From an uncultured Paraprevotella sp. (GTDB lineage: Bacteria > Bacteroidota > Bacteroidia > Bacteroidales > Bacteroidaceae): DNA of 64,000 nt. Below the pieces are notes generated by a model. It saw only the letters and a program-made list of their open reading frames with translations. It did no database searches and was not told where the DNA came from. Within the stretch, counting starts at the first letter, position 1, and the number at the start of each line of letters is the position of its first letter. Positions 32,269 through 44,159 of this stretch are shown in pieces. The stretch spans positions 62,001 to 126,000 of the forward strand of contig CALULA010000002.1 in the NCBI GenBank assembly GCA_944321365.1, given 5' to 3'. Position numbers and translations under genes: made by a program.

Positions 32269-32743
32269 ACGCATCCCGTTATCAGGTTCCGCTGTGATTT
32301 CTCTCTGCCAAAGGCCTGCAAAAGGACAGTGGCGTGTTGTATCTTTCTGTATCTATGACCTTGTTGCTGTGATAAGGTCACGTATTCACAGCGTAGGACC
32401 GGACCGGTCAGCGCACTCGTCGCCCTTTCCTTGTCTGACAGGAAGAAAATCTGATGGCTGATCCCTTCCGGTTTACCGGTGAAGGAGGTGTGCCATTGTG
32501 TATGCTCTTTGGAATTTTTTCAGACCGAAAAGCAAACGAACATATTTCTTTAGGGGGAACGCTGTCATTGTGTTGTCAGACTTGCTTTTAAAGAGCCGAC
32601 CGGAGGTGTCCGGCTGTGGTAGCATTATTTTTATATATGAACCATTATGAACTTGCATTCTCATGTATTTATTCATACTTTTGCAAAAACGAGATTGCGC
32701 ATTTCGTCCATTTTTTTGTCGGTTACACTAAAAATGAAATATT
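32269..32743. other. Intergenic region between menE and the fimbrillin operon
   Basis: About 475 bases without a supported gene. Small hairpins occur (GACCTT...AAGGTC near 32378-32400; CCGGA-GGTG-TCCGG near 32602-32615, a possible menE terminator). The downstream part contains a full promoter at 32653-32683. Confidence 0.65.
32653..32683 (+). promoter_or_regulatory. Promoter of the fimbrillin-kinase operon
   Basis: TTG (32653-32655), 20-bp spacer, TACTTTTG (32676-32683): a full consensus match. Transcription would begin near 32690, giving a leader of about 55 nt. Confidence 0.75.
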
Positions 32744-33712
32744 ATGATGTCAGTTTTATCTTTAATAGAAGAGCGGGTAAGGCGGATTGGAATACGGTTT
32801 TCCATGTTGTTGCTTGCCTCTATTGCGTTGGGTGCCTGTTCGTCCGGTGAAGATGAACTGCTGGATGAACCGGAGCCTTCCGTGCCGTCGGGAGAACAGG
32901 AGGTATGGCCTATCACTATCAGCACTGTGATGGAGAATGATGGCTATAAGCGTGTCACTGATTATGCCTTTGAGGCGGGAGATGAGATTGGACTTTATGT
33001 GGTTTCGCGCGAGTCTGACGGAACGGCAAATCCGTTGCAGACTCAGGGAAACCACGTGGACAACATGCGTTTTACGTATAGTGGCGTGTGGACAGCCGAT
33101 ACACCGGTTTATTGGAAGGACGATGTGACGCATGCGGACTTCTATCTGTATTATCCTTATCGGGCTACTGTAGGGAATGTGGAGACTATGTCCTTTCAGG
33201 TCAATGCAGACCAGAGCAGGGAAGAGGCCTATAAGGCCAGCGATCTGATTCTGGGACAGGTGCAGGACGTGGCTCCCACGGAGAGTGCGGTCCGGATTGC
33301 AGCCCGTCACATGCTGACCCAGATGGTGATCACAGTGGTGCCGGGTAACGGTTTTACTGCGGAAAGTCTTGCGGCCGCAGACGTTACGGTGAGAATCAAT
33401 GGGGTCAGGACAGAAGCATCTGTCAATCTGGCGGCGGCAACCGTGACGGCAGTGGGTGAACCGGGGGCTGTCACGCCGTTGTCGGAGGACGGCAGATACA
33501 AGGCTTTGATTGTACCTCAGACGGTGAGCCAGGGTAATCTGGTGACTGTGACAGTGGACGGGCGTGAGTTCAATTACCCTACCTCCATGACCTTTGAATC
33601 GGGTCGGCGTTACCAGGTGACTGTAACATTGAATAAGACCAGCAACGGAATCAATGTGTCGATTGACCCGTGGGAGGATGACGGCATTGATTATGGCGGT
33701 GTCGCAGAGTAG
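32744..33712 (+). CDS. Fimbrillin-family lipoprotein
   Basis: A 322-residue lipoprotein with lipobox ALGAC (Cys about 32) and a fimbrillin/Mfa-like body: RVTDYAFEAGDEIGLYVV, PVYWKDDVTHADFYLYYPY, YKASDLILGQVQDVAPTESA, RHMLTQMVITVVPGNGF and the closing ITIDPWEDD-like segment. Such proteins are exported, lipidated, and often processed to polymerise as surface fimbriae. Two further genes downstream carry the same module. First gene after a strong promoter. Confidence 0.85.
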   Translation: MMSVLSLIEERVRRIGIRFSMLLLASIALGACSSGEDELLDEPEPSVPSGEQEVWPITISTVMENDGYKRVTDYAFEAGDEIGLYVVSRESDGTANPLQTQGNHVDNMRFTYSGVWTADTPVYWKDDVTHADFYLYYPYRATVGNVETMSFQVNADQSREEAYKASDLILGQVQDVAPTESAVRIAARHMLTQMVITVVPGNGFTAESLAAADVTVRINGVRTEASVNLAAATVTAVGEPGAVTPLSEDGRYKALIVPQTVSQGNLVTVTVDGREFNYPTSMTFESGRRYQVTVTLNKTSNGINVSIDPWEDDGIDYGGVAE

Positions 33713-33730
33713 AGATTTTTTTGAATGACA

Positions 33731-33787
33731 GCAAATAAATGTCGTGAAGACAAATACTTTCCCGGTCTGATACCGGCATTTATTTGC
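33731..33787. repeat. Perfect 11-bp inverted repeat between operon genes 1 and 2
   Basis: GCAAATAAATG (33731-33741) and CATTTATTTGC (33777-33787) enclose an inner hairpin CCGGT-CTGAT-ACCGG. No T-run follows, so an mRNA-processing or stabilising structure is more likely than a terminator. Confidence 0.65.
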
Positions 33788-33823
33788 TCGTTGTTTATGG
33801 TCTAACCTTAAAAAAGGAGTATT

Positions 33824-36800
33824 ATGAAATTTAGAAATTTCTGTATTAGCTTGCTGGTGTGCTGGATGGCACTTGCAGGGTGTTCCGATGACCTGTTCAG
33901 GGACGATGCCGTCATCAACGGGACAGAAAGGATCAGCCTGGCCGGTGAGATTGACCAGGTGGTAAAGACCCGCGTGAACGACAACGGTTTCTGCGACGGA
34001 GATGTGATGGGTGTGTACATCGTTGACTTCAATGGGAATGAACCGGGAGAGTTGATGCTCACCGGAAACCGTGGAGACAACGTGCGACATACTTTTGACG
34101 AAGCGGCCTATGCCTGGAATTCTGCATACGACCTGTATTGGAAGGACAAGCATACCCACATTGATGTGTACGGTTACTATCCTTTCGGCGAACCGGAAAG
34201 TATCGAGGCTTACAGCTTCACCGTGCAGCGCGACCAGAGCACGGAAGGCGAGAATGGAGAGTTGGGCGGTTACGAGGCCAGTGACTTCCTGTGGGGGAAG
34301 GTGGCCGATGTGGCTCCGACAACCCATGTCATCCGTCTGCCCATGCAGCACCGCATGGCCAATGCCCGTGTCACGCTTGTCGAGGGTGAGGGCTTTGCCA
34401 CAGGCGAGTGGCAGAAAACGGAGAAAATCGTGCTGGCCACCAACCTTGTCCGCGAAGCCAGCATCAATCTGTCGGATGGTCATGTGACACCGGTGGGAGA
34501 GGTGGAAGAGACGGCTACCATCCCCAGCCGCAACGGCGATGAATGGCGGGCCATCGTGGTGCCGCAGACCGTGCCGAAGGACACCATGCTGTTCAGCATC
34601 ACCATCGGCGGCGTGCCCTACAAGTTCTCCAAGAAAGGAGACTTCACTACCTATATAGCTGGCAAGATGAACAACTTCTCCATCCGTGTGGACAAGAAGG
34701 AAGATACGGGAAAATACACCCTGACGCTCATCAGCGAGAGCATCACCCCGTGGGAGAACGACCTGGTGAGCCATGACGCGGCGGCACGGGAATATATCGT
34801 CATCAACTCCACTGCCGGGCATCTGAAAGATTCTATCATTGCGGCCAACAAAGACTACACGCAGGTGAAGAATCTCAAGATCACCGGACGTATCAACAGT
34901 CAGGACTTCTATTTCATGCGTGACTCCATGGAGATGCTTCAGTCGCTCAACCTGAAAGAAGTGCGTGTCAGAGGCTCTTTCGGCTATCAGCCTTGGTTCA
35001 CTGGCGATGCCAGCCGTGATGATGTGGAACGCGATGACGTGATTCCTCAAAGTGCCTTTGATGAGAAAAGTTCGCTGCTTCGCATTGTCTTGCCTGATAC
35101 GTTGGAGGGAATTGGCGAGCGAGCTTTCCGTAGTTGCGTGAATCTCACAGGGGCAATCATCATTCCTGAAGGTGTCACCCGCATAGGCAGTAGTGCGTTC
35201 CTGTGGTGTACGTCCCTCACGGGTACATTGTCCTTGCCCAGTACGCTTGAATACATTGGCGGTGGCGGTGCTGCGGATATTCACGGCGCGTTCTGTGACT
35301 GTCATTTCTCTTGTGAACTGAAACTCCCCAACAACCTGAAATATATCGGGCATAATGCTTTTGCCGGTAATGACGGCTATTATGGCAATCTGGTTCTTCC
35401 GGAGAAATTGGAATTCATCGGTGACTTTGCCTTTGCCAATGCGCGGAATCTGACTGGTAATCTGAAAATACCGCAAGGGGTTTCCTACATCTCCCAGGGT
35501 GCATTTCAGTATACAGGTCTGAACGGAACACTCCAACTGCATGATGGCATAACCGGCATCCAGCCCGGAGCGTTCCAGGGAAGTCCGTTTAAAGGCGATC
35601 TGGTGCTCCCGAAGGATCTGACCACGCTCGGAGCCAGTGCTTTTGAAGGTTGCGATTTCTCCGGAGAGTTACAACTCCCTAAGGATATCGCTTCCATAGG
35701 CAGCAATGCTTTTGCCGGGAACTGGCGTCTCATGGGAACGGTGGAATTCCCGGACGGCCTGCAGACCATAGGCTCAAATGCATTTTCCGAATGCCGGAGT
35801 TTGGAGGGGCTGGTGTTCTCGGAAAGCATAGAGAACATACAGAGCGGTGCTTTCAACAACTGTTTCGGCATAGGCTCCATCGTCTGCAAAGGCGAAATGC
35901 CGGCCCGTGTGGAAAGCAGTGCGTTCAACGGCGTGGCCAAAGACAACTTCACGCTCGAAGTGCCCGAACCTGCCATTGCGCAGTATCAGGTAACGGCAGG
36001 CTGGAACGAGTTCAAGCGTATCGCCGCCCATCACGAGCTGGTGTGCCGTCCGTCCGTGGCCTGTGCCCTGAACACCGAGCACAAGCAGACGCTCGTTGTG
36101 GATGCTGAGGGCGAATGGGAGGTGCAGAGCATGCCGACGTGGTGCGAACTGTCGCAGACCAGCGGGGGGGACAAGGCCGAGGTGACGCTCACCATCAAGG
36201 CCATGGCCAAAGGCTCGGCCGACCGCACGGGGGAAATCGTGTTCAAACTGAAAGACGAGGAATATACCCACAAATGCACCGTGACGCAGTATGATTACGA
36301 GTACGGCGAGGACGAATGGCTGACCTTGCAAAAGGCCACGCGCGGTAACAACGGCGGCATCAACATCGTGATTCTCGGCGACGGTTACGATGCCAAGAAT
36401 ATCTCCGACGGTGACTATCTGGTCAATATCCAGCAAGAGGTGGAATACTTCTTCGGCATCGAGCCTTATACGACCTACCGCGACTACTTCAACGTCTACA
36501 CGGCTTTCCCGCTTTCTACCGAGACCGGCGTGGGTACGGTGAATACCATCCGCTACAACCGCTTCAACACTACCTATACCGGCGGTGTGGGTCTGCGTGC
36601 CGATTATGATGAGATCTTCAACTATGCGCTGAATGCTCCCACCGTGACACGGCAGAACCTGAACCAGACGCTCATCATTATTGTGCCGAACAGCACCGAC
36701 TATGGCGGCATCTGCCAGATGTGGGAGGACGGCTCGGCCATCGCCTTCTGTCCGCAGAGCACCTACGGCTACCCGCTCGATTCGCGCGGCGTCATCCAGC

Positions 36801-37312
36801 ATGAGGCCGGCGGTCATGGCTTCGGCAAGCTGGGCGATGAATACATTTATCACAATGAGTTTATCGATTTCTGCGGATGCAGCTGTTGCGGTCACGTCTT
36901 TGAATTCAACTGGGCGAAAGGACTGGGCTGGTACGACAACCTGTCGCTCACGGGCAAGATGCACGAAGTGCCCTGGAGCCATCTCATCTTCGATGACCGC
37001 TACAGCGACATCGTGGACATCTACGAGGGTGGCTTCATGCACAACCGCGGTGTGTTCCGTTCGGAGCAGAACTCCTGCATGAACAACGACATTCCGTATT
37101 ACAGCACTATCAGCCGTGAAAGCATTGTGAAGCGCATCAAGCGTTATGCTGGCGAAACCTACTCATTTGAAGAATTTGTGGCCAATGACAAGCGCGATGC
37201 CGGCATCCTGACACGTGGTATTGTGGACGAGACGTCCGGGCACACATTGCACAGCTTCCAGTTGCCGCCGCAGATTCATAAGGGAAGTCCATTGCAACGG
37301 AACGGGCGATGA
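33824..37312 (+). CDS. Fimbrillin-LRR-BACON-M64 peptidase lipoprotein
   Basis: A 1162-residue surface lipoprotein (lipobox ALAGC). Residues about 25-310 are a fimbrillin-like module (LYWKDKHTHIDVYGYYPF, YEASDFLWGKVADVAP). About 410-715 are BspA-type LRR_5 repeats (LPDTLEGIGERAFRSC, IPEGVTRIGSSAFLWC). About 740-823 is a BACON domain. About 844-1110 is an M64 (IgA-peptidase-like) zinc protease with IVILGDGYDAKN and the metal motif HEAGGHGFGKLGDEY (H993, E994, H998), then the SHLIFDDRY/YEGGF/NSCMN tail. The second histidine is one residue further than in classic HExxH. An AAGGAG sits just before the start. Likely binds and cleaves host or fibre proteins. Confidence 0.88.
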   Translation: MKFRNFCISLLVCWMALAGCSDDLFRDDAVINGTERISLAGEIDQVVKTRVNDNGFCDGDVMGVYIVDFNGNEPGELMLTGNRGDNVRHTFDEAAYAWNSAYDLYWKDKHTHIDVYGYYPFGEPESIEAYSFTVQRDQSTEGENGELGGYEASDFLWGKVADVAPTTHVIRLPMQHRMANARVTLVEGEGFATGEWQKTEKIVLATNLVREASINLSDGHVTPVGEVEETATIPSRNGDEWRAIVVPQTVPKDTMLFSITIGGVPYKFSKKGDFTTYIAGKMNNFSIRVDKKEDTGKYTLTLISESITPWENDLVSHDAAAREYIVINSTAGHLKDSIIAANKDYTQVKNLKITGRINSQDFYFMRDSMEMLQSLNLKEVRVRGSFGYQPWFTGDASRDDVERDDVIPQSAFDEKSSLLRIVLPDTLEGIGERAFRSCVNLTGAIIIPEGVTRIGSSAFLWCTSLTGTLSLPSTLEYIGGGGAADIHGAFCDCHFSCELKLPNNLKYIGHNAFAGNDGYYGNLVLPEKLEFIGDFAFANARNLTGNLKIPQGVSYISQGAFQYTGLNGTLQLHDGITGIQPGAFQGSPFKGDLVLPKDLTTLGASAFEGCDFSGELQLPKDIASIGSNAFAGNWRLMGTVEFPDGLQTIGSNAFSECRSLEGLVFSESIENIQSGAFNNCFGIGSIVCKGEMPARVESSAFNGVAKDNFTLEVPEPAIAQYQVTAGWNEFKRIAAHHELVCRPSVACALNTEHKQTLVVDAEGEWEVQSMPTWCELSQTSGGDKAEVTLTIKAMAKGSADRTGEIVFKLKDEEYTHKCTVTQYDYEYGEDEWLTLQKATRGNNGGINIVILGDGYDAKNISDGDYLVNIQQEVEYFFGIEPYTTYRDYFNVYTAFPLSTETGVGTVNTIRYNRFNTTYTGGVGLRADYDEIFNYALNAPTVTRQNLNQTLIIIVPNSTDYGGICQMWEDGSAIAFCPQSTYGYPLDSRGVIQHEAGGHGFGKLGDEYIYHNEFIDFCGCSCCGHVFEFNWAKGLGWYDNLSLTGKMHEVPWSHLIFDDRYSDIVDIYEGGFMHNRGVFRSEQNSCMNNDIPYYSTISRESIVKRIKRYAGETYSFEEFVANDKRDAGILTRGIVDETSGHTLHSFQLPPQIHKGSPLQRNGR

Positions 37313-37347
37313 ACATAATTACTGTTTAATCAAAAAAGATTATAAAG

Positions 37348-38256
37348 ATGAAAAAAGATATAATAAAATCCATTGCCATCACGTTATTGGCAATAGGGTT
37401 GTCTACCTGCTCGCAGGAAGAGGCCGTGCCGGACATGCCGGCAGCGGCAGGCGTTCCGACAGATGCACGGCATACTCCCATGAAGTTCACCGCTCTCCAT
37501 CCGGCGCAGAACAAGCGCGTGACCGACACGGGCTTTGAAACGGGAGACACCGTGGGACTGTATGTACACGTCCAGAACGCGCCTCTGGAAATCGGAGGCA
37601 ATCTGGTGAACAACGAGGCACTTGTGCGGACCGACGGCGGAGAGTGGACAACCTCCCGTACGCTCTATTGGGACGATGGCACGTTCAATGCCTGTGCCTA
37701 TTATCCTTACATTCCGCACGTCGGATCCATTGAGGATCTCCCGTTCAGCGTGAGTCTGGACCAGCGGGACGACAACGGCGCGGGCGGTTATGAGGCGAGT
37801 GATTTCCTCTATGCCAGGACCGAGGGGGTGAGTGCGTCGGACACGCCTGTCCCCCTGCAGTTCCGTCACATCATGAGCAGACTTACGATACGGCTCATCA
37901 AGGGAGAGGATTTCGAGGGCGACATGCCTACGGACGCTGTGGTCTATCTGCATAACACCGTACCCACGGCCACCATTGACCTGAATGCCGGAGTGGTCAC
38001 GCGGGATGTGTACGGCGTGCGGAGCACTATCAGGGCGCGGCAGACCAGTGACTTTGTTTTCTCCACGATTGTGGTGCCCCAGCGTGTCGAGAACCGCATG
38101 CCACTGATTGAAGTGGTCATGAAAGGGGTTTCCTACGTCTATGAGAGCACTTTCCAGTTCAAGCCGGGCGTGGAGCATCTGGTCAACATGGTAATATCGG
38201 ATAATCCTGATAAAGTGAAGATTGAGATAGGCGGTGAGATAGAAGACTGGCAGTAA
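37348..38256 (+). CDS. Fimbrillin-family lipoprotein
   Basis: A 302-residue lipoprotein (lipobox LSTC, Cys about 21) with the same module as the two upstream genes: RVTDTGFETGDTVGLYV, TLYWDDGTFNACAYYPY, GGYEASDFLYARTEGVSASD, FRHIMSRLTIRLIKGEDF, and TIVVPQRVENRMPLIEV. It is probably a second fimbrial or accessory subunit. It follows the M64 gene after 35 bases and precedes the next gene by 8 bases, so it is clearly within the operon. Confidence 0.82.
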   Translation: MKKDIIKSIAITLLAIGLSTCSQEEAVPDMPAAAGVPTDARHTPMKFTALHPAQNKRVTDTGFETGDTVGLYVHVQNAPLEIGGNLVNNEALVRTDGGEWTTSRTLYWDDGTFNACAYYPYIPHVGSIEDLPFSVSLDQRDDNGAGGYEASDFLYARTEGVSASDTPVPLQFRHIMSRLTIRLIKGEDFEGDMPTDAVVYLHNTVPTATIDLNAGVVTRDVYGVRSTIRARQTSDFVFSTIVVPQRVENRMPLIEVVMKGVSYVYESTFQFKPGVEHLVNMVISDNPDKVKIEIGGEIEDWQ

Positions 38257-38264
38257 ATGAAAGA

Positions 38265-39302
38265 ATGAAAGCAGCGATATACGTCTTATCAGCTTTGGTA
38301 TTCGTCCTTTTAGGGGTGGCGGCAGTCCTGTGGCTGTCGCCACCCCTTGATGATGCCGGGGCAGGACGTGAGGTAAGGTACGGGCTTTACGAGGGGCGTG
38401 AGTTGGTGCAGGCCATCGACGGTGAGGGGAATGCACGTTACGCGGTGGAAGACAGCCACGGAAACAGGCTGTTCGACATCCCCGTGACTGGCTGCCTGCT
38501 GGACGTGCGTTTCCGGGAGGGCCGGTTGCGCTTCCGGGAGGGTGACACGAAGCGGACCGGGTATATCGACCTGGAGGGGAATGTGCAGTGGCTGGCGGAC
38601 AGCTCGCGCAGCGACCACGGGCAGCTTGTACGCGAGCCTGCTGAGGTGTCTGTCATCGTGCCCGATAAAGAGAAACCACGGGCGGAAGTCCCGGTCGCTT
38701 CACGGGAAGACGGCCTGTCGTACAGACTGGATGATGCGTCCCTGCGCCGGCTGAAGGCGGACCATCCGTTCTATAAGGAGGCGGCCAGGATTCTGTCTGG
38801 CAAGCTGCCGGTGGACGACAGTGAAAGACGGCGTGTTATCCTGAACTATTGCGAGCATTTCCGTATGGCCTATACGACCAAGGACATCGATTTTCTGCGG
38901 CAGGTGTTCAGCGAAGAGGCCCTGATCATAGTGGGGAATGTGGTGAAGACCGCACCGCAGGGCGGCAGTGGGATGGCGGCGGACAAGCGTGTGGAATACT
39001 ATCTGCGCACGAAAAAGGATTATCTGGACCGGCTTTCGCGGGCTTTTGCCGCCAACAAGAAGATTGACGTGGAGTTCTCGAAATTCCGCATTATGCGGCA
39101 TCCCAGTGTGAATGGCATCTATGGGGTCAGTCTGCGTCAGCGTTACCGTAGCGACCGGTATTCGGACGATGGCTGGCTGTTCCTGCTCTGGGATTTCCGC
39201 AATGCGTCCATGCCGCTCATACACGTCAGGACCTGGCAGCCGTCGGCAGCCGTGGAAGAGGCGGAGGATGTGGTCGGCATCAGTGACTTTAACCTGCAAT
39301 GA
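38265..39302 (+). CDS. Membrane-anchored NTF2-like protein
   Basis: A 345-residue protein with one N-terminal membrane helix (residues 4-24) and an extracytoplasmic body. The first part has beta repeats of the kind RLRFREGDTKRTGYIDLEGNVQW. The second (about 188-325) resembles the NTF2 fold: RRVILNYCEHFRMAYTTKD, FLRQVFSEEALIIVGN, YYLRTKKDYLDRLSRAF, and GIYGVSLRQRYRSDRYSDDG. Such domains bind small ligands or mediate dimerisation; no catalytic set is evident. Packed between a fimbrillin gene (8 bases) and the next gene (13 bases). Confidence 0.65.
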   Translation: MKAAIYVLSALVFVLLGVAAVLWLSPPLDDAGAGREVRYGLYEGRELVQAIDGEGNARYAVEDSHGNRLFDIPVTGCLLDVRFREGRLRFREGDTKRTGYIDLEGNVQWLADSSRSDHGQLVREPAEVSVIVPDKEKPRAEVPVASREDGLSYRLDDASLRRLKADHPFYKEAARILSGKLPVDDSERRRVILNYCEHFRMAYTTKDIDFLRQVFSEEALIIVGNVVKTAPQGGSGMAADKRVEYYLRTKKDYLDRLSRAFAANKKIDVEFSKFRIMRHPSVNGIYGVSLRQRYRSDRYSDDGWLFLLWDFRNASMPLIHVRTWQPSAAVEEAEDVVGISDFNLQ

Positions 39303-39315
39303 TGAATAGGCATAT

Positions 39316-40392
39316 ATGGAGGTAGGAGTGTTTTTGTCGTTCTGCCGGAGAACCGGGAGGTACATCGGGTTTTCTTGTGTTCCGTGGCTGGTGGGCATGT
39401 GGCTGACGGTTCTCGCACTGTCTGTCCCGGCACAAGCGATGGAGGGTGCTGTCCGCGACAGTGTCCTCACGGACTCCGTTACGGCTCCGTCGGGCGGCAC
39501 GCACTTCCGTGTGTCGGGCTTCCGGGTGCTGCCCAACGATGTGAGTGCGTTCATCTCCCCTGTGCGTGACCTCAACGGAGATGCCTGCGCACTGGTGAAG
39601 GTGGTGGGCCCGGCGGACTGCGCGTTCTCCTCGCCGTTGGGCATCGTGAAGCGGCTGGACAAGGTGGGCGAGATATGGCTCTACCTGCCGCGCGGCACCA
39701 GGATGCTGACCATCAAGCATCCTCAGTGGGGCGTGCTGAGGGACTACCGTCTGGCCAAGCCGCTGGAGGGACACGTGACCTATGAACTGAAGATTGAGAG
39801 GCCGAGGCCGGCGGTGGTCCATATGCGCGATACCGTGGTCTTTACCCAAACGATTACCGACACCATCGTTGTGGACCGCCGGAAGCTCTGCCCCGCCTGG
39901 CGCATGCACGGGCTGCTGACGGCATCGCTGCATGAGCGTGGACCGTCATGGGGCGTCATGTTCACCATGTTCCGCCGCCATGGTTTCTTCGTGCACGGCC
40001 AGAGCGACCTGCGTCGTGTGGGGCAGGGATTGCCCGCGTGCGACAGGGACGGCTTTCTGCCCGGCAGCACGGTGAAGCCCTATTATACGGGTGATACGCG
40101 CCGGGCAAGTTATGCTTTCACGGCGGGGGCGACCCATCGTCTGCTTTCGTGGCTCGGCCTGTTCTATGGGATGGGTTACGGGCGTTCGTCGGTGGCATGG
40201 CGGCTGGCGGACAGCGAGGGCGGGGGCTATGTGCTCAATGAGGGACTCTCGCACGAGGGGGTGGCTGCCGAGGCCGGCGTGCTACTCTCTTATAAGCGTC
40301 TCAGCCTGTCTGCCTCTGCGCTGACTGTCCGAGGCGAGCTGTGGCAGGCCGTAGTAGGAATTGGCATCAGATTATGGAAAGCAAAGGAATAG
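39316..40392 (+). CDS. PEGA-like and beta-barrel-like exported protein
   Basis: A 358-residue exported protein (signal sequence about 20-42, ending PAQAME). Residues about 60-160 look like a PEGA-type surface repeat unit: NDVSAFISPVRDLNGDACAL, GEIWLYLPRGTRMLTIKHP and HVTYELKIERP. The C-terminal half has short amphipathic strands (GLLTASLHERGPSWGVMFTM, YGMGYGRSSVAWRL) ending in GIRLWKAKE, suggesting a small outer-membrane barrel. It may link fimbrial parts to the outer membrane. Its 3' end overlaps the next gene by 19 bases. Confidence 0.6.
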   Translation: MEVGVFLSFCRRTGRYIGFSCVPWLVGMWLTVLALSVPAQAMEGAVRDSVLTDSVTAPSGGTHFRVSGFRVLPNDVSAFISPVRDLNGDACALVKVVGPADCAFSSPLGIVKRLDKVGEIWLYLPRGTRMLTIKHPQWGVLRDYRLAKPLEGHVTYELKIERPRPAVVHMRDTVVFTQTITDTIVVDRRKLCPAWRMHGLLTASLHERGPSWGVMFTMFRRHGFFVHGQSDLRRVGQGLPACDRDGFLPGSTVKPYYTGDTRRASYAFTAGATHRLLSWLGLFYGMGYGRSSVAWRLADSEGGGYVLNEGLSHEGVAAEAGVLLSYKRLSLSASALTVRGELWQAVVGIGIRLWKAKE

Positions 40393-42617
40393 TCATATAC
40401 AGGTTGCTGCTCATCGTGGTTGCGGTGTGGGCATTGGGGGCCTGCCGGGACGAGTACGGGCCGGACAGTTTTGAGCCGCAGCTCTACGTCGGTGCGGCTA
40501 CCGACATCACGCGTACGGAAGTCACCCTCACGGGTCGCGTCGTGAGGCAGGGGAACACGCCCATGCCGCAGCTGCGGTTCCTGTATGGCACGTCGCAGGG
40601 GCCGGACCTTGCCTCTCCGGTGGTGGAGGCTGACGGAGAGGGGAGTGTGTCGGTACGGCTGACAGGGCTGGAGCCGGGCACGTTCTATAGCTTCTGTCTG
40701 CAGGGGGACAACGGGCGCGTGGTACTCAGCAGTGACACGGCAGCGTTCACGACCCTGCCCGCAGAGATACCGGTTCTGTATGTAGATACGGTGGCGGATG
40801 TGACGCGCATGGAGGCCACTCTGACAGGCGGTGTGCGCAAGGAGGCGGAGACAGCCATGCCTGAGGGGCTGCGGTTTGTGTATGGCACGCAACAGGACGA
40901 TACGATGGGCCTTGCGATGCCCGTGCCGGAGGTCGACAGCACAGGGCATGTGTCGGTGCGGCTGACGGGGCTGGAGCCGGGCACGTCCTACCGTTTCTGC
41001 CTGCAAGGGGATAACGGAAGTGTGGTGCTCAGCAGTGATACGGTGACGTTCACGACCCTGCCCGAAGATATACCGGTATTGTATGTGGACGCAGCGGCGG
41101 ACGTGACGCGCAAGGAGGCCACTCTGACGGGCGGAGTGCGCAAGGAGGCGGAGACGGCCATGCCTGAGGGGCTGCGGTTTGTGTATGGCGCGCAGCAGGA
41201 GGGCACGATGAGCCTTGCGGTGCCCGTTCCGGAGGCCGACAGCGCAGGGCATGTGTCGGTGCGGCTGACGGGACTGGATCCGGGCACGTCCTACCGTTTC
41301 TGCCTGCAGGGGGATAACGGGAGTGTGGTGCTCAGCAGCGACACGGTGGTGTTCACGACCCTGCCGGACAGGCTTCCGGTGGTGGGGCCGCCCAGTTTGC
41401 TGGGGGTGGGGCCGCTGAGCGCGGTGTTGACCTATGAGATTACGGATGAGGGCACTGAGCGGGTGACGGAATCGGGCTGCTACGTCAGCAACCTGGCAAC
41501 AGGCCGGACGGTGAAACATCAGGTGTCTTCCGTCTCGTCCGTATGCCGGCTGCACATCAGCGGGCTGGAATCCGGACTGGCCTACAGCATACAGCCGTAT
41601 GCCGTCAGCAGTGTGGGTGAGGCCAGAGGGGAGAAGCTGGAGATTACGACCGCTGATGCCTTTGTGTGGACTGAGCCGGGCGGGCTGGACGAGCTGGCGG
41701 GGGAGGAGGACCTTTTTCAGTTCACCTCGCTCACGTTTGCCGGGCCGATGAACGGCGACGACCTGCGGCAGCTGCGGCGGCTGGCGGGACGTGAGCCGGA
41801 CGGAACGGACAGCGGGGGCAGGCTGACCCGCCTGGACCTGACGGATGCCGACATCGTGAGCGGAGGCGGAAGTTACGACAATGCCCACTATGCGGCCGAC
41901 AACGTGGTGGGGCAGGGATTGTTCGCTGGCTGTGACCGGCTGGAGAAGGTGGTGCTGCCCGCATCTGTACGGGTGATAGAGAAGGACGCTTTCCTGGACT
42001 GCAGCTCGCTCGTGCGGCTGGACATCCCGGCGGGTGCCGTGCAGGTGGCACCTTCGGACGGGTGCAGCCAGCTGGCCGGAATCGGCGTGTCGGAACTCAA
42101 TGCGGCCTACTGCAGCGAGGACGGCGTGCTGTTCACTGCCGACCTGTCGGAGCTCGTGTGGTTCCCCATGGGGCGGGACGGAGACTATGTCCTGCCCTCC
42201 TCGGTCACATTGGTGGGCGACTATGCCTTCCGTGGCTCACGCGTCACGAAGCTCACGCTGCCCGACGGGCTGAAGAGCCTGGGGCAGGGCGTGTTCTATG
42301 GCAGCAGGGTGGAAGAAGTCGTCATGCCGGCCTCGCTCGGAACGCTGCCTGCCGCCACCTTCCAGGGCTGCGGTAGCCTGCGCACCGTGAGGCTCGGCAG
42401 CGGCACGGGGCTCGTGTCGGACTACGCCTTCGACGGCTGTCCGCTGGAGCACTTGTATGTGGAGGCCGTGTATCCGCCGGTATGCAATTCCCATGCGTTC
42501 ACTACTTCGTATGAGGGGTTGTTCGCGGGATGCGTGCTGCATGTGCCCCAGCAGGCTCTGGAGATGTACAGGGCACACCCCTCCTGGGGTAAGTTTGAAC
42601 ATATAGTTGGAATGTAA
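40374..42617 (+). CDS. FN3-repeat and leucine-rich-repeat surface lipoprotein
   Basis: A 748-residue lipoprotein (lipobox ALGAC). Residues about 36-335 are three fibronectin-III-like repeats; the second and third are nearly identical 101-residue units (ADVTRxEATLTGGV, VSVRLTGLxPGTSYRFCLQ). A fourth, diverged FN3-like unit follows (about 340-425). Residues about 480-748 are BspA-type LRR_5 repeats (FAGCDRLEKVVLPASVRVIE, AFRGSRVTKLTLPDGLKSLG). Typical adhesin architecture. The start ATG at 40374 places the lipobox correctly; the longer frame begins in the preceding gene. The next gene begins one base after its stop. Confidence 0.8.
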   Translation: MESKGIVIYRLLLIVVAVWALGACRDEYGPDSFEPQLYVGAATDITRTEVTLTGRVVRQGNTPMPQLRFLYGTSQGPDLASPVVEADGEGSVSVRLTGLEPGTFYSFCLQGDNGRVVLSSDTAAFTTLPAEIPVLYVDTVADVTRMEATLTGGVRKEAETAMPEGLRFVYGTQQDDTMGLAMPVPEVDSTGHVSVRLTGLEPGTSYRFCLQGDNGSVVLSSDTVTFTTLPEDIPVLYVDAAADVTRKEATLTGGVRKEAETAMPEGLRFVYGAQQEGTMSLAVPVPEADSAGHVSVRLTGLDPGTSYRFCLQGDNGSVVLSSDTVVFTTLPDRLPVVGPPSLLGVGPLSAVLTYEITDEGTERVTESGCYVSNLATGRTVKHQVSSVSSVCRLHISGLESGLAYSIQPYAVSSVGEARGEKLEITTADAFVWTEPGGLDELAGEEDLFQFTSLTFAGPMNGDDLRQLRRLAGREPDGTDSGGRLTRLDLTDADIVSGGGSYDNAHYAADNVVGQGLFAGCDRLEKVVLPASVRVIEKDAFLDCSSLVRLDIPAGAVQVAPSDGCSQLAGIGVSELNAAYCSEDGVLFTADLSELVWFPMGRDGDYVLPSSVTLVGDYAFRGSRVTKLTLPDGLKSLGQGVFYGSRVEEVVMPASLGTLPAATFQGCGSLRTVRLGSGTGLVSDYAFDGCPLEHLYVEAVYPPVCNSHAFTTSYEGLFAGCVLHVPQQALEMYRAHPSWGKFEHIVGM
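40479..41378 (+). repeat. Tandem FN3-coding repeats, 303-bp unit
   Basis: Units at about 40479-40772 (diverged), 40773-41075 and 41076-41378. The last two are highly similar at DNA level and exactly 303 bp apart, so copy number can change by recombination in frame. Confidence 0.8.
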
Positions 42618-42618
42618 T

Positions 42619-43185
42619 ATGAATACACCGGAAACAGAAGAACTTAAAGTGCAGGTGGAGCAGAAGTACGGGCGGGTGCTGAGCACGAGCACCGACTTCG
42701 AGGCTTTCTCGCTGGAACTCGGCCGCAAGACGGGCGAGCGCCTGTCGTCATCCACCATGAAGCGGTTGTGGGATTATGTGGGCGACAGCCATAAGCCCCG
42801 TGTCTACACGCTCGACATTCTCTCGCAGTATGTCGGGCACAAGGACTATGCCGCGTTCAAATCCTGGCTGAAGACCAGTACACGGTATAACTCGTCGTTC
42901 TTCAACGCGGAGCAGCTGGTGAGCAGCGAACTCAGGCCCGGCGCGGTGGTCGAGATCGGGTGGAGCCCGAACCGGAGCGTGCGTCTGAACTACCTTGGCG
43001 ACAGCCTGTTCGAGGTGACCGGCTCGCGCAACAGCAAGATCGTGGCCGGAGACCGCTTCATGGCGGGGTGTTTCATCAAAGGCCAGCCCCTGTATCTGCC
43101 CTATATAGAACGGCGGGACAGGCGCACACCGCCTTTTGTGGCAGGGCGCAACGGGGGGCTGACTGTCATCAACGTCATCGGCTGA
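42619..43185 (+). CDS. Helix-turn-helix-like protein paired with the kinase
   Basis: A 188-residue cytoplasmic protein. Residues about 25-80 match an HTH-like segment common in Bacteroidetes proteins: RLSSSTMKRLWDYVGDSHKP, then TLDILSQYVGHKDYAAFKSW. Residues about 95-188 are a small beta domain (LRPGAVVEIGWSPNRSVRLN, GDRFMAGCFIKGQPLYLPYI). It could be a DNA-binding or adaptor protein responding to the kinase. The start is the ATG at 42619; the TTG at 42607 is rejected. Its TGA overlaps the kinase ATG by one base, indicating coupled synthesis. Confidence 0.6.
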   Translation: MNTPETEELKVQVEQKYGRVLSTSTDFEAFSLELGRKTGERLSSSTMKRLWDYVGDSHKPRVYTLDILSQYVGHKDYAAFKSWLKTSTRYNSSFFNAEQLVSSELRPGAVVEIGWSPNRSVRLNYLGDSLFEVTGSRNSKIVAGDRFMAGCFIKGQPLYLPYIERRDRRTPPFVAGRNGGLTVINVIG

Positions 43186-44159
43186 TGGAGAAGGAGCAGC
43201 AGTCAGGCGGCTGGAAGGACAGTCCGTCGGGGTATGTGGAGCGGCTGGATGATGCCATCCGTTCGGCCTCGGTGATGCGGGTACAGGATGGATTCAGGGA
43301 CCTGCGTGAGTTCTATGTGTCGCAGACAGGACACACGCGCCTGTTGTATGCCTCGCGCTACGGCAAGTTGTATGTGCTTAAGTGCCTGAAGCCCGATTTC
43401 CTCTATGTCCCGCTCTACCGCCAGGCCCTGGCCAAGGAGTTCGAGATAGGCCTGCAACTGGACCATCCCTGTATCTGCCGTACGGTGGGGATGGAGGAGG
43501 TGGAGGGGCTGGGCCCCGTCATCGTGATGGAGCGGGTGGACGGCTGCACGCTGAAGAGCCTGATGGAGCAGGGCGCGCTGACGAGGCCGCTGGCCCGCAG
43601 ACTGGCCATGCAGCTGATGGATGCTGTGGGCTACCTGCACGACAGGCAGGTCATCCACCGCGACCTGAAACCGTCGAACATCATGGTTTCCTACAACGGG
43701 CATAACGTGAAACTGATTGATTTCAGTCTGGCGGACAGCGATGCCTTCGGGGTACTGAAGCAGCCGGCGGGCACGTCGGGCTATATCGCGCCGGAGCAGT
43801 TGCTTGCTGGTGCCAGGGCGGACGTGCGTGCCGACATCTATTCGCTGGGAATGGTGATGAAGGACATGGCGCAGGCTGTGGGGGACAGGCAGATGGGGCA
43901 TGTGGCGGCATTGTGTACGCGTCGCAATGTGGATGAGCGCCCGCCCGATGTGGTCCGTCTGAAGAAGTTGCTCCTGCATGGCCGCAGGCAGCTCTTCTGG
44001 GTGGTGCTGCTTGCTCTCCTGACGCTCCTGTCGGCCCTTTGTGTGGCGGTGGCGTGGCGGGGACGGCAGGAGCGGGTGCGGGCCTCGCAGTCTGTAGAAC
44101 GTCTTCAGCCGGACAGCAACAGGGCTGTCGATATCCGCTCGTGGCCCTCGCAGCAGTAG
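43185..44159 (+). CDS. Membrane-anchored Hanks-type Ser/Thr protein kinase
   Basis: A 324-residue kinase. The N-lobe lysine is in YVLKCLK (K66), the helix C glutamate near E86, the catalytic loop VIHRDLKPSNIM (HRD 158-160, N165), the metal site LIDFSLAD (D179; DFS instead of DFG) and GTSGYIAPEQ, with DIYSLGMVM later. A canonical GxGxxG loop is not visible. A single membrane helix (about 270-290) leaves only some 30 residues outside. It likely phosphorylates the upstream HTH-like protein or operon products. Last gene of the operon. Confidence 0.85.
   Translation: MEKEQQSGGWKDSPSGYVERLDDAIRSASVMRVQDGFRDLREFYVSQTGHTRLLYASRYGKLYVLKCLKPDFLYVPLYRQALAKEFEIGLQLDHPCICRTVGMEEVEGLGPVIVMERVDGCTLKSLMEQGALTRPLARRLAMQLMDAVGYLHDRQVIHRDLKPSNIMVSYNGHNVKLIDFSLADSDAFGVLKQPAGTSGYIAPEQLLAGARADVRADIYSLGMVMKDMAQAVGDRQMGHVAALCTRRNVDERPPDVVRLKKLLLHGRRQLFWVVLLALLTLLSALCVAVAWRGRQERVRASQSVERLQPDSNRAVDIRSWPSQQ

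Follow-up and report, generated by a model that had tools for sequence, protein, structure and literature searches.

A run of genes for fimbrillin-like lipoproteins, a metallopeptidase domain, envelope proteins and a Ser/Thr kinase lies in a stretch of 64,000 nucleotides from an uncultured Paraprevotella sp. (hereafter, the window), which raises the question of whether these genes form one unit and, if so, in which direction a signal would pass through it. Among the main surface appendages of gut Bacteroidales are type V pili, which are built from fimbrillin-like proteins and whose binding targets are little known (PMC12632263). The window contains eight open reading frames (genes A-H) on the plus strand at 32744-44159, separated by 111, 35, 8, 13, -19, 1 and -1 bases. 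The earlier note had described eight same-strand genes with these gaps behind one full promoter, and both descriptions are confirmed, the former by the coordinates of the reading frames and the latter by an exact match to the promoter consensus. The features are as follows.

32653-32683, plus strand: Bacteroidales -33/-7 promoter before gene A, exact match to TTG-N20-TAnnTTTG
32744-33712, plus strand: gene A, fimbrillin-like lipoprotein, 322 aa (PF13149, Mfa_like_1, E=8.9e-65)
33824-37312, plus strand: gene B, lipoprotein of 1162 aa with fimbrillin, BspA-type LRR, BACON and M64-like zinc peptidase domains (Pfam)
36800-36844, plus strand: zinc motif HEAGGHGFGKLGDEY of B, residues 993-1007, HExxxH instead of HExxH
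37348-38256, plus strand: gene C, fimbrillin-like lipoprotein, 302 aa (PF13149, E=3.7e-57)
38265-39302, plus strand: gene D, protein of 345 aa with an N-terminal membrane anchor and an NTF2-like domain
39316-40392, plus strand: gene E, protein of 358 aa predicted to have an unclassified beta domain and an 8-strand outer-membrane barrel (AlphaFold, Foldseek)
40374-42617, plus strand: gene F, lipoprotein of 747 aa with fibronectin-III-like repeats and BspA-type LRR (fn3, 2.8e-14; LRR_5, 2.2e-23)
42619-43185, plus strand: gene G, kinase-partner protein of 188 aa, modelled as five helices followed by a small beta barrel
43185-44159, plus strand: gene H, Ser/Thr protein kinase of 324 aa with one C-terminal TM helix (Pkinase, E=4.6e-32)

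The first part of the question is answered by the recurrence of the gene set. Eighty named loci in GTDB genomes, many of them metagenome-assembled, are retrieved with an alignment of E; their genome labels are Paraprevotella, Prevotella, Leyella, Xylanibacter, Bacteroides, Phocaeicola, Mediterranea, Butyricimonas, Muribaculaceae and others. This sample is chosen by E and therefore cannot give the frequency of the other cassette genes in the absence of E. By the earlier note, genes that are unlinked or shuffled in most relatives would speak against the unit, and this is not what the loci show. The order A-B-C-D-E-F is near-universal in the intact loci and recurs nearly throughout the 80, and the D domain is detected at 80/80 with HMMs made from the window genes. 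F is followed by G-H in collinear orientation (type I), by H-G in collinear orientation (type II) or by a convergent pair (type III). Of the 74 loci whose sequence continues past F, 69 have H within the cluster, 68 of them with H beside F and one with H fused to D, which agrees with the earlier claim that the kinase is part of the set. Six loci (L133, L135, L143, L163, L171 and L189) stop short of the kinase position, and L129 stops after G. Among the loci that reach this position, H is absent from the cluster only at L152, L165, L167 and L181; the genomes of these four, and four other genomes tested, all encode G. At L152, L165 and L167, the H-G pair does not adjoin F, and G is encoded elsewhere in the genome.

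The genome of the window gives a single match each for H, G and M64. The congeners G001 and G007 share the A-H gene set and its order, with the contig of G007 starting inside A; G009 also has this order, with B split over two frames, and the cassette is cut by contig ends in G017 and G004. The flanks differ: on the upstream side, G001 and G009 have translation genes of the thrS/rpmI type (by eye), and the window has menC/menE-like genes. The full set is also found in Xylanibacter rarus (L090, with B duplicated) and at L091. Full-length E is found in 13/301 genomes of a family sample and, in an evenly drawn sample of the order, only in the genome of the window, so that the distribution of the cassette is patchy. 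A-H is a real conserved unit of Bacteroidales, and the case for this is very strong. Two other identities are rejected. A defence system is not indicated, PADLOC matching the generic kinase domain only, and neither is a mobile element, E being absent from PLSDB plasmids and viral contigs and no tRNA being present in the window. The base composition of the operon is not clearly foreign. G+C climbs along the operon from 0.53 in A to about 0.62-0.64 in E, F and H, and third-position G+C climbs from 0.58 to 0.80.

Sites matching TTG-N20-TAnnTTTG occur four times in the window, versus 0.41 expected from shuffles. A generic sigma-70 scan of the window gives no excess of sites over shuffles, which is expected for Bacteroidales, and the -33/-7 consensus was applied instead. 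Terminator-like sites in the window are likewise not in excess over shuffles. Across the loci, the 300 bases that precede the first gene, A, contain the -33/-7 promoter in 33/51 cases, as compared with 2.2% of random windows, and the promoter is found upstream of B, C, D, E and F at only 1/55, 2/72, 3/77, 0/80 and 1/76 loci respectively (0-4%). The distances between neighbouring cassette genes have medians of -8 to 39 bases. These short distances and the concentration of the promoter before A support a single A-F transcript, which would reach G and H in the collinear layouts. The H-G pair of Bacteroides-type loci is encoded on the opposite strand and need not share this transcript; G has its own -33/-7 promoter upstream in 6/20 convergent loci.

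All three of A, B and C contain Mfa_like_1, as expected from the earlier description of three lipoproteins with related fimbrillin modules. The nearest solved structure for A is 4k4k, a 'putative cell adhesion protein' (E=5e-16), and sequence comparison gives no solved relative for C. The fimbrillins are position-specific in 177/177 cases: the first is of the A type at 53/53, B is of its own type at 64/64, and the third, after B, is of the C type at 60/60. A simple pattern detects Arg/Lys, a putative processing site, at a conserved position early in the pilin domain; it is present in 38/54 of the A proteins, 57/65 of the B proteins and 21/61 of the C proteins. Acidic residues directly follow the lipobox Cys in most A, B and F proteins, and positions +2 to +7 after this Cys hold about 1.6-2.1 of them in A, B, C and F, versus 0.9 in long D. 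The signal for surface export in Bacteroidetes consists of acidic residues after the lipobox Cys, SDDDD in B. fragilis (PMC5080379), and the post-lipobox residues of A, B, C and F resemble it. Type V pili contain three pilins, of which the tip pilin typically has an extra C-terminal binding domain (PMC12632263). The identification of A-B-C as a type V pilin-like trio that includes the protease-bearing B is supported by these sequence features, and B is the likely tip pilin; adhesion and polymerisation are putative. At L230 (1021-12460) in G010, of the same genus, three tandem B-like genes (fimbrillin-LRR-M64) are followed by a C-like fimbrillin, with no adjoining D-H, and the zinc motifs of these B-like proteins vary (HEAGGH, HEACGH).

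B had been described in the earlier note as a fusion of fimbrillin, LRR, BACON and M64. The domains are all detected by Pfam (PF13149, 2.3e-54; LRR_5, PF13306, 2.1e-50; BACON, PF13004, 6.8e-11; Peptidase_M64, PF09471, 3e-13), but the HEXXH of M64 is not, since the motif reads HExxxH. HExxxH is present in every cassette copy of B with a readable motif, nearly always as HEAGGHxFxKLxDEY, so that none of these copies fits the M64 motif HEXXHXXXGXXD (PMC12402451). B nevertheless passes the curated cut-off of PF09471 with 50 versus 26 bits, as do its counterparts in congeners G001 and G007, and its best-matched PDB entries are 3p1v and 4df9. In an alignment of 67 rows, conservation exceeds 95% at H993, E994, H998, D1005, E1006, Y1007 and six cysteines, and it does so at 134 of about 337 positions of the M64-like domain. 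Among the published M64 clusters, HEXXHXXXGXXD is kept in all except CL-X, which lacks it, with Asp replaced by Glu in two; CL-IV is restricted to Bacteroidia (PMC12402451, 2025). Twenty-six stand-alone M64 proteins of ~430 aa have HExxH. A few M64-like proteins outside the cassette have HExxGH (L231 1995-4796, L232 1830-3590, L233 1347-3014 and L234 790-1656), so that the HExxxH variant belongs to a wider M64 branch. HExxGH recalls the motif HELLGH of dipeptidyl peptidase III, a likeness of motif only. With this change of motif, the peptidase activity may be changed or lost, and B is referred to here as a predicted protease.

The AlphaFold model of E has a mean pLDDT of 84.7, with values >90 in the barrel region, and a Foldseek search with it detects Ail (3qrc, E=8e-7, prob 1.0, TMt 0.65) as well as OmpX and OmpA. 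E is thus well predicted to be an OmpX/Ail-like 8-strand outer-membrane barrel. The earlier note had called E a PEGA-like/barrel protein. The barrel is borne out by the model, but PEGA is not: E matches no Pfam family in the window, and the identity as a Pfam PEGA protein is rejected, as none of the 46 homologues of E has a match. A distant E-like protein with true PEGA repeats is found at L102. A second type of locus (L102 7143-12955, L100, L101, L105 and L106) encodes D-like NTF2 and E-like beta-domain/barrel proteins, with other secreted proteins adjoining.

The hydrophobic segment of D starts at residue 4 (KD 2.74), and its C-terminal domain gives an NTF2-like match to Cds6_C (E=2.6e-5) that is below the Pfam cut-off. 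The sub-threshold match and the segment together bear out the claim that D is an NTF2-like anchored protein. In Bacteroides-type loci, D is ~570-670 aa long and contains WG repeats (WG_beta_rep, 1.9e-34 in one copy), often with a lipobox. D-like NTF2 proteins also occur in other surroundings. At L098 (859-10026), L099 and L107, a protein of ~1000 aa that starts with NHILVGLGGTGGKILRAFKMRMFEEF (tubulin-like by eye) is encoded a few genes upstream of one, and at L104 (6332-9553), in a congener without detected E, a fimbrillin-looking lipoprotein of ~445 aa is encoded directly upstream. The Pfam matches of F to fn3 and LRR_5 agree with its earlier description as an FN3-LRR lipoprotein, and nearly all loci have F placed after E and before the kinase module.

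H has the catalytic Lys (LKCL), HRDLKPSN and DFS in place of DFG; across its relatives, this motif is DFS in 35, DFG in 18 and DFN in 13. The glycine-rich loop does not fit GxGxxG, and its sequence is YVSQTGHTRLLYA. The TM helix lies near 271-289. With the Pkinase profile, it substantiates the earlier claim of a membrane kinase. A C-terminal TM helix is kept in 64/66 H proteins, with medians of 34, 4 and 93 residues beyond it in types I, II and III respectively. On this topology, the kinase domain is predicted to be cytoplasmic and the protein to be tail-anchored, so that H should be unable to phosphorylate surface lipoproteins directly. In a single MAG (L094/L186), kinase, TM helix and the NTF2-like domain of D form one ORF of 541 aa, in which the D domain comes after the TM helix; G is directly before this ORF and E is after it. 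This fusion suggests that D is the likely periplasmic input to the kinase and favours outside-in signalling.

The model of G has a pLDDT of 93.1. G had been described as HTH-like, a claim that the searches do not support: no significant Pfam family is found in 49 homologues, no PDB entry matches by sequence, and no PDB entry is matched by Foldseek at E<=0.001. The only trace of such a domain is HTH_26 at E=0.14 in one homologue, and an HTH transcription factor is not supported. G and H are neighbours without the cassette in many genomes of the order, and the targets of H-G may therefore be general. In a tree of G-H, types I, II and III each form one clade, that of type III including the fusion locus, and types I and III with the fusion locus together form one well-supported clade apart from the stand-alone pairs. 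The distances E-H and E-G correlate within layouts with r of 0.72-0.88, which common descent alone could give. G of type II is only ~27% identical to G of types I/III, and E and H are 41-48% identical (L137, L139, L140, L142, L145 and L147). An exchange of both genes of the kinase pair in type II loci was considered and dropped, because the identities of E and H fall in step and G alone is unusually divergent.

The reading that we tentatively prefer, at somewhat less than an even chance, is that A-H encode a surface machine with its own trans-envelope signalling line, which runs from outside to inside through E, D, H and G. A, B and C would form a type V pilus-like complex with B at its tip, which would keep the protease at a distance from the cell, and F would be a second surface lipoprotein. 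E would lie in the outer membrane with its soluble domain at the N-terminal, periplasmic end, D would be anchored to the membrane in the periplasm as the partner of H, and H, which itself has hardly any domain outside, would lie in the inner membrane. H would then read the state of the surface complex through E and D and would phosphorylate G and/or other cytoplasmic targets, by which expression or envelope behaviour may be adjusted. Pilus assembly, protease activity, surface location, the direction of the signal and G as a target are the inferred parts of this scheme. Between outside-in signalling and direct phosphorylation of surface proteins, the former is the likelier, as the topology favours it. 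The phrase 'kinase-regulated apparatus' of the earlier note is not supported as worded, because the kinase domain is predicted to be cytoplasmic; the kinase-D fusion favours an inward signal.

The same linkage of kinase and surface genes, which is conserved, would also be expected if control ran from inside to outside, as the earlier reader supposed, with H sensing a cytoplasmic or membrane cue and controlling the assembly, display or activity of the surface complex through D and E. The occurrence of the D domain and the kinase in one membrane-spanning protein accords with such control; however, a kinase domain on the cytoplasmic side would then need an outward conformational relay, and the fused periplasmic domain looks more like an input than an output. 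We regard this direction of control as distinctly unlikely. It is unlikely, too, that two systems are merely adjacent, with A-F as a pilus/protease operon and G-H as a general kinase module that is only its stable neighbour. The pairs of G-H that stand alone in many genomes, the position of type III G-H on the other strand, its separation from F at L152, L165 and L167, and the promoters of some reversed units (6/20) are all consistent with such neighbours. They are countered by the retention of H with the cassette (69/74 loci) in three different arrangements, by the fusion of the kinase to D, and by the clade of type I, type III and fusion G-H that stands apart from the stand-alone pairs.

With either direction of the signal, or with two neighbouring systems, the three fimbrillin-domain lipoproteins might form a complex that does not polymerise and whose job is the proteolysis of a host or microbial protein. 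The presence of only three fimbrillins, each specific to its position, the lack of a solved relative of C by sequence and the strong conservation of the M64-like domain accord with this variant. On the other hand, a type V pilus needs three pilins (PMC12632263), and most A and B proteins have the Arg/Lys early in the pilin domain, at its conserved position. We consider the variant somewhat unlikely. The outside-in reading in its fullest form, an undescribed trans-envelope machine in which a pilus-borne HExxxH protease complex signals through E and D to the tail-anchored H and to G as a kinase partner of a new class, is possible but doubtful.

The cassette is conserved and taxonomically broad, and in it a pilin that bears a predicted protease is linked with an outer-membrane barrel and with a Ser/Thr kinase. 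If the preferred outside-in reading is correct, gut commensals would have a concrete means of sensing or processing what surrounds them, and trans-envelope signalling by Ser/Thr kinases would become directly testable in gut Bacteroidales. A search of the full text of open PMC papers finds no named system with the A-H set, in agreement with the earlier note. The cassette is best classed as a type V pilus-like locus with a conserved accessory signalling module, unmatched to named systems in this literature.

The cassette shares parts with several known systems. With the type V pilus loci (Fim/Mfa of Porphyromonas gingivalis and the Bacteroides pilins), it shares three Mfa_like_1 lipoproteins encoded together and, in B, the large extra C-terminal domains that follow the pilin domain of tip pilins. 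It differs from them in that the tip-like B ends in LRR-BACON-M64, and the pilus loci described in the literature consulted are without the FN3-LRR lipoprotein, the outer-membrane barrel, the NTF2/WG protein, G and the Ser/Thr kinase. With the M64 metallopeptidases (IgA protease ThomasA; BF3526, 4DF9; BACOVA_00663, 3P1V), B shares the conserved His, Glu, His and Asp and the Cys after them, but it has HExxxH (HEAGGH) rather than HEXXHXXXGXXD, and its peptidase domain is fused behind pilin, LRR and BACON. H resembles the Hanks-type (PknB-like) kinases with a single TM helix in its Pkinase domain, catalytic Lys, HRDLKPxN and one TM helix. Unlike them, it has a C-terminal helix that leaves little or nothing outside; D apparently provides an outside domain in trans, and is fused to the kinase in one genome. 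H also commonly has DFS/DFN instead of DFG, does not have GxGxxG, and has the small protein G as a regular partner. Trans-envelope relays suitable for comparison are Rcs with RcsF/OmpA and the cell-surface signalling by TonB receptors and anti-sigma factors. The proposed chain of an outer-membrane barrel, a periplasmic protein and an inner-membrane signal protein is shared with these relays by analogy only, and membership in them is not claimed. In place of their His kinase, anti-sigma factor or TonB receptor, the cassette uses a Ser/Thr kinase and G.
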